From a virus, in the IMG/VR virus record IMGVR_UViG_3300045999_005825, positions 1 to 44,156 of that record: 44,156 bases of DNA; one strand, written 5' to 3'. The notes below the pieces were generated by a model, which saw nothing but the letters and a program-made list of their open reading frames with translations, ran no database searches and had not been told where the DNA came from. Position 1 is the first letter of the stretch. Each line of letters starts with the position of its first letter. This document shows positions 4,198-44,156 of this stretch, piece by piece. Both the position numbers and the translations under genes were made by a program.

Positions 4198-4210
4198 CAA
4201 CAAAGCATAA

Positions 4211-4238
4211 GAGCCGCCTGGAGAAATCCAAGCGGCTC
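4211..4238 (-). promoter_or_regulatory. hairpin in the terL leader
   Basis: On the minus strand GAGCCGCTTGGA pairs with TCCAGGCGGCTC (12 bp with one G-T wobble) around a TTTC tetraloop, ending 14 nt before the terL start. There is no T-run, so a terminator is unlikely. It could control terL translation or be an RNA-processing site. Confidence 0.6.
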
Positions 4239-4299
4239 ACCTTGCCTGACCTCGCCATGCCTTGCCTTTCCCAGGCGTGCCCCGCCACGCCTTACCAAG

Positions 4300-4375
4300 C
4301 CTTGACTGCCCATGAGGGCAGCAGAGGAGCGATCCAGATGGACGCCCCAGTGCTGCTTTCACAGCCCCTGCCCGG
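4300..4375 (-). repeat. structured repeat R1
   Basis: Composite repeat: block 4300-4324 (CTGCCC-ATGA-GGGCAG hairpin), variable core 4325-4349, block 4350-4375. On the minus strand AGCAGCAC before the core and CTGCTGCC after it can pair, and the core itself folds as GGGGCG.TCC / GGA.CGCTCC with a bulged T. The outer blocks match R2 almost perfectly while the core does not, yet both cores form a hairpin. Confidence 0.7.
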
Positions 4376-4426
4376 CAATGCCACTCCGCGCCACGCCATG
4401 CCCCGCCTGGCCTCAACCCTGCCCAA

Positions 4427-4496
4427 CCTTGACTGCCCATGAGGGCAGCAGGGAAGAGCCGAAGCTCCTCCGTGCTGCTTTCACAGCCCTTGCCCG
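4427..4496 (-). repeat. structured repeat R2
   Basis: Second copy: block 4427-4451 is identical over 25 bases to 4300-4324, and block 4472-4496 differs from R1 at one base. The 20-base core 4452-4471 reads on the minus strand GGAGGAGC-TTCG-GCTCTTCC, an 8-bp stem with a C(UUCG)G tetraloop, which favours the minus strand as the RNA strand. Sequence change with retained pairing relative to R1 points to a selected RNA structure. Confidence 0.7.
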
Positions 4497-4590
4497 ACCC
4501 GACCAGGCCTCGCCTCGCCCAGCCTCGCCTGACCAAACCGTGCGCTGCCGGACCACACCTGGGACTTACACCTAACGGAAGCCCAGGCGA

Positions 4591-5229
4591 TCAAACAGCC
4601 AGCAACTGTTGATTGATCTGCTCCGCAACAGCAGGGCGATCAACAACCTTGGCCTCAAAGCGGCCATGCTTTGGCCTCCAATCGCCTATGCCAACAAGCT
4701 TGCCGGCATCAACGACGATCTCCTCGACCTCCCGCAAGTTCAACACATCAGGGTCGTACTGCATCTCAACGAGCGCAGACCACTCTCGGAAGATCGGGCG
4801 CGTGCGCATGACCTTGGCCATTCCAACGCGCACGCCAGCAACATGAACGTACTGCCCGCTGGCAAACATGCTTTCAAGAGCGCCGTCGTCGATTGATGCG
4901 GGCTTGCCTGGGAATAGCAGCGATGCGTGCCCAGTGATGTAGATGCCAGTCTTGGCCTGAGGGCCTCGCTTGGACTTCTTCGCGCCGCCGATCAAGGCGC
5001 TCTCGATCACGTAGTCCGGGACAACAAGGTCGTCCTGGAACCTGTACAGACCTGCCATCCACTCAAGTTTGGCCAGTTCATCCAGGTCTGCATCCGTCTT
5101 CTTGCGCTTACTGCTGACCGCCTTCATCGCCTTGGCGTAGATATTTCGCGGATCTGCTGTTTGCCCGTTGTGGAGGAGCAATGGGCTCACTCCAGACAGT
5201 TGAAGCCAAATTGTTGGCAGTGATGTCAT
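4591..5229 (-). CDS. RAMP/Cas7-like phage protein (putative)
   Basis: 212 aa from the ATG at 5229 (MTSLPTIWLQLSGVSPLLLH...); a longer frame opens at 5304 but its first 25 residues overlap the HNH gene and look non-coding. Three features recall the RAMP (ferredoxin-like, Cas7-type) fold: an N-terminal strand with 'GVSPLLLHNG', a central 'KRKKTDADLDELAKLEW' helix, and a C-terminal glycine loop 'GIGDWRPKHGRFEA' preceded by 'RTRPIFREW'. I recognise the family as a frequent uncharacterised protein of tailed phages; the RAMP link is my inference. It lies between an overlapping HNH nuclease (122 bp overlap) and the pentamer repeat block. It may bind nucleic acid, perhaps RNA from that block. Alternative: an ssDNA-binding or recombination accessory protein. 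Confidence 0.5.
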   Translation of the reverse strand: MTSLPTIWLQLSGVSPLLLHNGQTADPRNIYAKAMKAVSSKRKKTDADLDELAKLEWMAGLYRFQDDLVVPDYVIESALIGGAKKSKRGPQAKTGIYITGHASLLFPGKPASIDDGALESMFASGQYVHVAGVRVGMAKVMRTRPIFREWSALVEMQYDPDVLNLREVEEIVVDAGKLVGIGDWRPKHGRFEAKVVDRPAVAEQINQQLLAV

Positions 5230-5572
5230 GTCGCTTTGATGGGATGTGTGTCGATAAAGCTGGGGCTGATACAGGCACGTGAGAGACCTGCTTACGTGGG
5301 TCAAGCTTGAAGCGCTGCTGCCTGACTGAGTTAGTAATGCCGTCGTGGCATGTCGAGCACAACGTCAGAAGGTCTGACAACCGCTCATTCCCAAACGACG
5401 GGTACCTGTAGTCAGGCGGCCCTGCATTGATGTGATGCACTTGCAAGCTTGGCCATCCGAGGTCGTCTAACTGCTTGGCAGTAATTCCACAGCCCTTGCA
5501 GCTGTAGCCGTCGTGCTCAAGCCTCATGCGCCGTTTCTCTTGCCACTCCGGTGAGGAGTAGTAGTCACTCAT
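5108..5572 (-). CDS. HNH endonuclease
   Basis: 154 aa. Zinc-ribbon HNH (beta-beta-alpha-metal) nuclease: CKGC at residues 25-28 and CSTC at 72-75 bind the structural metal, HH at 46-47 with N62 and H76 form the catalytic HNH set. The C-terminal 70 aa are low-complexity and overlap the next gene. HNH nucleases beside terL are common in phages and may assist DNA cleavage during packaging, but a free-standing homing nuclease cannot be excluded. A leftward sigma70-like promoter (5613-5641) lies 41 bp upstream of the start. Confidence 0.85.
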   Translation of the reverse strand: MSDYYSSPEWQEKRRMRLEHDGYSCKGCGITAKQLDDLGWPSLQVHHINAGPPDYRYPSFGNERLSDLLTLCSTCHDGITNSVRQQRFKLDPRKQVSHVPVSAPALSTHIPSKRHDITANNLASTVWSEPIAPPQRANSRSAKYLRQGDEGGQQ

Positions 5573-6027: not shown

Positions 6028-6107
6028 CTTGTACATCCCTTTCCCCATGCTCACTTGCTCCACTGCTCCCCACCTCATCACTCCACGCCATCCCAACTCT
6101 CAACACC

Positions 6108-42708: not shown

Positions 42709-43290
42709 ATGACCGTCTACACGAACCCCCAAACACCGCTAGTAGGCGCTGTCACGATGGTTGGCAGCCCCTCGGAGCGAGCAAGCGGAACCTCCTACCG
42801 CTCAGTGGTTGCTATCACACGCCCAAGCAACACCACCGCATACACAGCTGGAGATGTGATTGGTGTTGCAGACGCAACCACACCTGCCAACGCAGGCAGC
42901 GCCATCCACACGCTCGCATCAGTTGGCCCATCTGGCGGCTATGTGATCATCCAATCGGTTGAGCTTGCTATTGGCAACACAAGTGCCCCAAGTGGCATGG
43001 GCGGTTTCAGGCTGCACTTTTACACTGCCTCTCCCACTGCGATTCTTGACAATGCAGCGTTTGACCTAACTAGCGGAGAGGTCTCTGCATACCTCGGCTT
43101 TGTTGAGCTTCCTTCCCCTCAGGATCTTGGTAGCACCCTCTACACCCAGGCTGATTACACGGGCCGCCTGATCAAGCTTGCAGATAGCAGCACGAGCTTG
43201 TTTGCGGAACTTGAAACGCGAGGCGCTTACACCCCAGCAAGCGGCACCCTGTACACCCTGCGAGTCAAAACGCTGGAGGCCGGACTGTGA
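42709..43290 (+). CDS. tail-fibre-associated structural protein
   Basis: 193 aa. Beta-rich, low in Lys, with 'MVGSPSERASGTSYRSVVAI', 'TAYTAGDVIGVADATTPA', 'GGFRLHFYTASPTAILDNAA' and a C-terminal 'ASGTLYTLRVKTLEAGL'. This protein type commonly precedes tail-fibre genes in cyanophages. Two bases separate it from terS and its stop overlaps the GTG start of the fibre gene by 4 bp. Confidence 0.65.
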   Translation: MTVYTNPQTPLVGAVTMVGSPSERASGTSYRSVVAITRPSNTTAYTAGDVIGVADATTPANAGSAIHTLASVGPSGGYVIIQSVELAIGNTSAPSGMGGFRLHFYTASPTAILDNAAFDLTSGEVSAYLGFVELPSPQDLGSTLYTQADYTGRLIKLADSSTSLFAELETRGAYTPASGTLYTLRVKTLEAGL

Positions 43291-43396
43291 GCGTGACTCT
43301 CCCCTCCCGCCATCCAATCCTGACGCCACAGTGGATCAAGAACGAGCTATGGCGCCGCGCTCGTGCAGTCCCCTCGCTGGACCTGCGCTTTGCCGA
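43272..43396. repeat. right copy of contig-end repeat
   Basis: Identical to 1-125; the first mismatch is C126 versus T43397. Together with 44058-44156 it frames the divergent fibre allele. Confidence 0.9.
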
Positions 43397-44156
43397 TAAC
43401 AAAAGCCTCGTTGACGCAACCACCGGGCAGAACCTTGCCACGTTCACCCGCGCCAGTAGCGGCACCTACGTCGATAGCCAGGGTGTGATCCAAAGGGCGA
43501 CGACGAATTTGCTGCTGAGGAGTGAGGAGTTTGGGACGACTTGGACAGCAGTGCGATCTAGTATTACAGCAGACGCTGCGACCGCCCCTAATAACACTTT
43601 AACCGCAGACAAACTGGTCGAAGATACAACCGCCACTAATAGTCATCAGCTGCAGCAGTCGGCAACCATTGCTGCAAATACAACTTACACTGTTTCATGT
43701 TTTATTAAAGCCGCAGAACGATCTGAGTTGCGTTTTCTTTTTGTTGCTGGAGTCGATGGCATCAATGCACTATTTAATCTAGGCACAGGCATAGCTACCG
43801 CTCAGGCAAATACAGGCTCAGGCTCAATAGTATCTGCAAGCCTCACACCTGTAGGCAATGGTTGGTTTCGCGCTGTATGCACAGGGATCGTTTCGCCGAC
43901 ATCTACAGCGGCAACTCTTACTATGCGGCTTATCTCTTCTGGCGCCAACTCCTATACCGGCGACGGCACCTCAGGGCTCTTCCTCTGGGGCGCCCAACTA
44001 GAGCAATCGAGCACGGTCGGCGAATACATCCCCACCACCAGCACGATCAATAGCGCACCACGCTTCGACCACAACCCCACCACGGGCGAGAGCTTGGGGT
44101 TGTTGGTGGAGGAGCAGAGGACGAACTTGTTGCTGCAAAGCAACGGGTTTGATACG
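43287..44156 (+). CDS. modular tail fibre / adhesin (allele B, truncated by contig end)
   Basis: 290 codons, open to the window end. Residues 1-70 are nearly identical to the gene at 16, the module at about 71-230 differs (TTNLLLRSEEFGTTWTAVRS..., 'RSELRFLFVAGVDGINALFN'), and from FLWGAQLEQSS on it is again the same. The variable stretch is 661 bp here and 673 bp in allele A, a difference of four whole codons. It is best read as a second strain's version of the same gene. Confidence 0.8.
   Translation, partial: MSVTLPSRHPILTPQWIKNELWRRARAVPSLDLRFADNKSLVDATTGQNLATFTRASSGTYVDSQGVIQRATTNLLLRSEEFGTTWTAVRSSITADAATAPNNTLTADKLVEDTTATNSHQLQQSATIAANTTYTVSCFIKAAERSELRFLFVAGVDGINALFNLGTGIATAQANTGSGSIVSASLTPVGNGWFRAVCTGIVSPTSTAATLTMRLISSGANSYTGDGTSGLFLWGAQLEQSSTVGEYIPTTSTINSAPRFDHNPTTGESLGLLVEEQRTNLLLQSNGFDT
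44058..44156. repeat. right end identical to 799-897
   Basis: 99 identical bases where the contig stops. A terminal exact match of 99 bases is what a k-mer assembler would leave on re-entering sequence already used. Confidence 0.88.

Follow-up and report, generated by a model that had tools for sequence, protein, structure and literature searches.

What does a small RAMP-type protein do beside DNA that is phased in steps of five bases? The question is raised by a locus on the minus strand of the window, the whole 44,156-nucleotide stretch analysed here (positions 1 to 44,156 of IMG/VR virus record IMGVR_UViG_3300045999_005825), which a preliminary description had put forward as a candidate unknown ribonucleoprotein system. 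We identify this locus (4199–5572, minus strand) with great confidence as a VIPR system, composed of a RAMP protein and guide RNAs. The core system is not unknown, since it has already been reported as VIPR (PMC13142463, preprint 2026, April–June 2026). The identification is based on the fold, homology to SUSP1 Vipr, array statistics, covariation in the RNA tails, the code and sister-phage targets of the clade and the linkage to an HNH gene, and all VIPR features that can be tested by sequence and fold are present in the window locus except for the accessory gene.

As reported in PMC13142463, Vipr is an approximately 20-kD RAMP of phages and its vrRNAs are composed of 9–16 YNNGG repeats, with a conserved GGY, a hypervariable NN and a structured 3′ tail, which read double-stranded DNA as NN followed by one skipped base; the targets are satellites and rival prophages. 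DNA binding, transcriptional repression and phage interference have been shown for the VIPR of SUSP1, and co-purification of vrRNA with Vipr together with transcriptional repression for SUSP1 and P. fulva (PMC13142463). By analogy with SUSP1, the window copy would likewise form an RNA–protein complex, bind DNA, repress transcription and interfere with other phages.

The vipr gene of the window (4591–5229, minus strand, with its ATG at 5229 and its stop at 4591) encodes a RAMP protein of 212 aa which contains both the GVSPLLLHNG beginning and the glycine loop GIGDWRPKHGRF from which a RAMP had initially been suspected. The protein belongs to phrog_4652, a PHROG family without known function (E 1.8e-49); neither Pfam nor PADLOC holds a model for Vipr and the window protein has no Pfam match. 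On its own it matches PDB 36pp_D, ‘SUSP1 Vipr protein’, with E 1.4e-27 over residues 9–198 (phmmer), and the clade profile matches the same protein (PDB 36pp) with E 1.7e-52. An AlphaFold2 model built from 52 window and locus sequences (pLDDT 90.8, pTM 0.84) gave 54 Foldseek matches in the PDB at E <= 1e-3, of which all 50 listed are CRISPR Cas7-type RAMPs, Csm3, type VII Cas7 and other CRISPR backbone subunits among them; the CRISPR RAMPs among the matches listed show VIA Z values of 9.1–10.6 and span residues 1–199. The window Vipr is thus predicted to have a Cas7/Csm3-type RAMP fold, and with its 212 residues and Csm3/Cas7 matches over residues 1–199 it agrees with the minimal single-RRM RAMP fold of about 20 kD. 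Three relatives (L025, L028 and L030) share a premature stop at Vipr residue 23 (HNG*TADP) and retain their arrays, which could represent a decaying system or a recoded stop.

The carrier is a T7-like phage genome with genes for an RNA polymerase, a gp2.5-like SSB, a primase–helicase, an integrase, terminase, capsid and endolysin. The closest relative that bears a name is the uncultured marine Krakvirus S39C11 (Autographiviridae), with which it shares 71% identity in both terminase and capsid; the Vipr profile found no match there. The carrier is probably a marine virus of bacteria; as to the host, the terminase points to Prochlorococcus podoviruses and the capsid equally to Roseobacter phages. 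No such T7-like RNA polymerase was seen in the contigs of twelve Vipr-carrying relatives, some of which are fragments, and the VIPR cassette has probably been passed between phages that are not related. The window's two ends resemble each other (92–93% alike) in two stretches (1–240 and 700–897 compared with 43272–43511 and 43959–44156), which may represent duplicated parts of genes or ends that overlap imperfectly.

Relatives of the protein are widespread. A first scan for relatives with the single window protein gave no match; tblastn of this protein against INPHARED identified 135 phages, including Felix O1-like, Pseudomonas, Gordonia and Mycobacterium phages, and an eight-sequence alignment recovered more than 500 relatives in IMG/VR, of which the best 80 were kept. 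In each of the seven loci that were read, GGNNN arrays lie on the coding strand, either upstream or downstream of the gene. The preliminary description had placed members of this family in other phages near such repeats, and had named as refuting outcomes homologues without pentamer arrays or a predicted fold unlike a RAMP. Neither came about: arrays lie within ~0.9 kb of vipr in 83 of 87 loci, with none on the opposite strand, which bears out the association, and the predicted fold is the RAMP-like one described above. Periods of 3, 4, 6 and 7 gave almost nothing beside vipr in the 87 loci. With a stricter parser arrays were found in 138 of 164 loci, as against two arrays on the reverse strand, and arrays of at least eight repeats in 60 of 77 bacterial genome loci, these locus counts including near-copies and hence not being independent; the phylogenetic tree was built on 136 distinct proteins. 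Across 276 unique arrays, entropy runs from the first to the fifth position as 0.55, 0.72, 1.44, 1.97 and 1.99 bits: the GG is fixed, the third base is C or T and the NN is hypervariable. Placement of the array shifts with the genomic context, upstream or downstream of vipr and near DNA polymerase, tail or regulatory genes.

A second gene of the locus, which the preliminary description did not mention, lies upstream of vipr (5108–5572, minus strand) and encodes an HNH endonuclease of 154 aa (Pfam PF01844 above cutoff; PHROG HNH families), a candidate accessory nuclease. It overlaps the start of vipr by ~120 bases (5108–5229). The vap1-like profile found no match in the window, and the HNH gene occupies a conserved slot. 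An HNH gene lies directly upstream of vipr in 45/45 loci of the clade and in 57 more, such that 165 loci divide into 102 with HNH, 41 with vap1, 22 with neither and none with both. The window itself falls within a fully supported set of 35 rows of the tree, all with HNH. The two classes differ also in the position of the vrRNAs, which lie 172 downstream and 6 upstream in HNH loci vs 46 downstream and 38 upstream in vap1 loci. The 22 loci devoid of both vap1 and HNH (L068, L071, L079, L080, L137 and others) retain arrays in 21 cases.

Could this HNH gene be a bystander, a homing-type or cos-associated endonuclease beside the terminase and outside VIPR? HNH genes are frequent near phage terminases, and in the window the HNH gene, vipr and the terminase gene are neighbours. 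However, with the window left out, 101 of 101 HNH profile hits occupy the slot directly upstream of vipr on the same strand, bacterial genome loci included, and none lies elsewhere in the loci. HNH moreover never occurs with vap1 (Fisher 5e-23, near-copies retained), overlaps vipr by ~40–200 bases in one and the same relative frame in 86/86 overlapping loci, and keeps its zinc and catalytic residues C25, C28, H46, H47, C72, C75 and H76 invariant in 55 relatives. We therefore regard a bystander as unlikely, if by no means far-fetched. Coupling and a frameshift fusion are both candidate readings of the long conserved overlap.

The HNH gene is intact and probably functional; we infer that it is the effector of this branch. 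On this basis we tentatively suggest a larger reading, which we hold to be quite possible: a branch of VIPR, carried by phages and coupled to HNH, that does not only silence the DNA of rival phages but cuts it, in which hnh, vipr and vrRNA would constitute a minimal three-part RNA-guided nuclease with a 2-of-3 base reading, mobile between unrelated phages, spread over viruses and bacteria, and with either vap1 or HNH, never both, as the effector. The main text of PMC13142463 describes nucleases only in types III and V, which it finds enriched in the defence islands of hosts, and makes no mention of HNH; the phage-borne HNH pairing goes beyond that main text.

Downstream of vipr, on its own strand, 390 bases had initially been described as non-coding and in strict 5-base phase. 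The phase is real: autocorrelation reaches 0.42–0.43 at lags 5 and 10 vs ~0.22–0.34 at lags other than multiples of 5, and when the entire 44 kb was scanned for GG in phase, the eleven top-scoring 100-base windows all fell in the array stretch on the minus strand. The strictness did not hold, as the stretch comprises three phased GGYNN arrays (14, 12 and 12 repeats) with one extra base, split by two homologous structured tails that are unphased, and then a terminator-like hairpin. All of these features lie on the minus strand. A leader hairpin, CTGGGC...GGTGTAAGTCCCAG (4559–4589; clade conservation, fold z −2.2), precedes the first array, and this hairpin (GGTGTAAG; GTGTAAG and flanking complement) is found 3′ of vipr in 41/44 clade loci. 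In one sub-clade the TAA in the leader motif GGTGTAAG seems to serve as the stop codon of vipr, as read from L025. The repeat tract of vrRNA 1 (4490–4559) contains 14 GGYNN repeats with the NN series GT CC AG AC TT CA GA TG GA GA CT CG CG AA and is followed by a structured 3′ tail (4433–4489; fold z −3.7). The tract of vrRNA 2 (4368–4428) contains 12 repeats and one inserted base, with the NN series TG AG TG(A) CA GG AT GT GC GT AT CG AG, of which the array parser retains only the last 9 repeats; its structured 3′ tail lies at 4306–4367 (fold z −3.3). The tract of vrRNA 3 (4242–4301) contains 12 repeats, NN being TT AA GT GG AC TG AA AA AT GA CA AA, and the array is closed by the terminator-like hairpin (placed at 4211–4238 within the segment 4199–4238; fold z −6.1), the one such site found where 1.2 would be expected by chance. 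Besides the pentamers, the repeats of the window comprise two 122-base units of vrRNA and tail which are 78% alike. The insertion in vrRNA 2, which follows the third repeat (GGTTGA), may make this a damaged guide; it also offers a natural test of slippage in the frame of the code. A 6-repeat ‘array’ parsed at 6065–6094 was taken as a chance match.

The tails are supported as RNA structures by covariation. Alignment of 36 homologous clade tails, those of vrRNA 1 and vrRNA 2 being of this type, reveals compensatory changes in a GGGCTGC/GCAGC hairpin, a central hairpin and a 3′ hairpin. In a two-hairpin model of the 36 tails 96.7% of cells are paired, compared with near 50% for slid versions, and 60 cells are changed on both sides vs 14.8 in shuffles; such both-side changes affect 9 of 12 base pairs of the tail, and the score was reached by 0 of 500 shuffles. 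An alternative long pairing which uses the same segment also covaries and is mutually exclusive with the two-hairpin model; the tail may switch conformation or form a pseudoknot. No Rfam family was found for the array, the tails or the leader, the weak matches being those of chance, and readings of the window repeats as DNA iterons, a packaging site, an overlapping coding frame, or a tRNA or ribozyme were dropped. In two actinophage loci, those of Gordonia phage Trine (L006 3579–3870) and L008 (2840–2900), the tails hold a tRNA T-arm-like GGGGTTCGACTCCCC, and ARAGORN calls one such vrRNA tail (L006/L008) a tRNA of unknown anticodon, possibly a tRNA-like processing handle. In Escherichia phage wV8 (L007 2768–2825 and 4161–4218) repeats annotated as ‘DR_4’, to which the record assigns no meaning, overlap the ends of the VIPR arrays.

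The NN letters can be read. The vrRNAs were parsed from all loci and their NN strings searched in the same loci with 0, 1 or 2 bases skipped between dinucleotides, which at E < 1e-3 gave 0, 6 and 0 matches respectively, compared with 1, 0 and 1 when the order of the NN was shuffled. For the clade of the window (44 loci and the window, 75 vrRNAs against clade DNA) there were 0, 12 and 0 matches at E < 0.01, and each of ten skip-1 shuffles yielded at most one match; the shuffles are the better control, because E is a binomial tail multiplied by the positions searched. The one-base-skip rule of PMC13142463 is thereby reproduced in a lineage other than those its main text describes as tested. The matches join different phages, such as L024 to L052 (25/28), L033 to L039 (26/30) and L047 to L019 (22/24), and the targets sit inside long reading frames, for example a terminase-like gene. 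In targets with one clearly dominant frame the skip falls on the third codon position, whichever strand is matched; the targets of L021 and L047 are less clear-cut. The mismatches are often found in the final one or two repeats, beside the tail, and those repeats may therefore not be guide letters. The source phage's own copy of the targeted gene usually matches less well (e.g. 20/30 vs 25/30), which fits self-avoidance.

These matches decide how the array is to be understood. As only a binding track, the RNA would be coated by Vipr at its fixed 5-base period so as to be sequestered, packaged or counted, with an uninformative NN; the RAMP fold and the 5-base phase agree with this, and the conserved GG and Y letters alone would suit it. 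The NN nevertheless decode to genes of sister phages, under one skip rule only, for 12 of the 75 vrRNAs vs 0–1 when shuffled; the array thus supplies guide RNAs and is more than the track of a filament. Changes to the NN also redirect the SUSP1 VIPR (PMC13142463). For the clade of the window the track-only reading is thus already refuted, provided that the skip-1 matches hold up with a larger, independent set of targets, and we give it very little probability overall. What stands of the preliminary description is a ribonucleoprotein on a 5-base period, as supported by the co-purification reported in the relative SUSP1 (PMC13142463); its view of the RNA as a track has to be extended, the NN being guide letters. 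Least probable of all is that the arrays are DNA-level sites (an origin, a packaging site or an iteron-like operator) bound by a neighbouring protein or operon, since, even though the window array abuts the terminase gene and repeats are common beside phage packaging genes, the arrays keep to the coding strand in the 87-locus set, RNA pairs of the tails covary, array position varies with genomic context and RAMPs bind RNA.

For the three vrRNAs of the window itself, no target above chance was found in six IMG/VR pattern scans (one of 20 and five of 16 specified bases, exact cores required) or, with as many as 3 mismatches allowed, in 50 related records; within the window no self-target was found, nor any site targeted by the vrRNAs of relatives. 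This is weak evidence, because the rival may never have been sampled and a diverged core would have escaped the scans. The best extended matches, 23/28 (L089), 22/28 (L215), 21/24 (L231, L238 and L239) and 20/28 (G041), do not go beyond chance for the number of hits obtained, and an 18/18 match of trimmed vrRNA 2 to L124 was discounted as it had been found by searching 16 of those 18 bases.

Comparison with known systems places the locus closest to the VIPR of the Escherichia phage SUSP1 (type II; PMC13142463, PDB 36pp), whose Vipr is homologous over its whole length and about a third identical, and which is likewise phage-borne with a multi-vrRNA array, GGY/NN vrRNAs of 9–16 repeats and structured 3′ tails; its one-base-skip code is shared by the clade of the window. 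Unlike SUSP1, the window has an HNH gene upstream in place of vap1, its tail sequence belongs to a different family, and nearly all vrRNAs of the HNH class are downstream of vipr. In the nuclease- or helicase-linked types III–V the accessory is a predicted enzyme, to which an HNH nuclease would fit, but types III and V are placed in host defence islands by the main text of PMC13142463, whereas the window VIPR resides in a T7-like phage. The Cas7/Csm3/Cmr4 backbone of Class 1 CRISPR-Cas resembles Vipr as an RNA-guided backbone protein with a RAMP fold and G-loop. In contrast to Class 1 systems, the window has one small RAMP only, and a 2-of-3 pairing as opposed to contiguous 5-of-6; no CRISPR-type direct repeats or spacers were found in the window, and no other cas genes (Cas5, Cas6, Cas10/Cas8, Cas3 or Cas1) among ~35 ORFs scanned with PHROGs, PADLOC having been run on two proteins. 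IscB and other RNA-guided HNH nucleases also combine an HNH nuclease with an RNA-guided module. This is a resemblance only, the window HNH domain having a weak NCBIfam match to IscB far below cutoff, and unlike in IscB the HNH and the guide binder are encoded by two distinct genes that overlap, the guide binder being a RAMP and not RuvC-like.

In the proposed mechanism, Vipr would assemble along short vrRNAs that are either cut out of the array or transcribed from it, with each subunit gripping one GGY triplet and exposing the next NN dinucleotide. The NN series would pair with double-stranded DNA with every third base skipped (NNxNNx...), which would confer tolerance of codon wobble changes; a target of vrRNA 1 of the window would carry GTnCCnAGnACnTTn... 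under this one-base-skip reading. The bound complex would silence or mark a gene of a competing phage and, with the overlapping HNH gene replacing vap1 in the lineage of the window, the bound DNA would be cut as well as blocked.

Starting from raw sequence, the analysis thus provides an independent confirmation that VIPR is present well outside the characterized systems. The one-base-skip code holds in a further lineage, in which the guides of the clade aim at structural genes of sister phages. The HNH partner leads to a testable proposal, that of a two-protein RNA-guided nuclease in a phage, and its pairing with Vipr bears on how silencing-only VIPRs could become target-destroying, CRISPR-like immunity.
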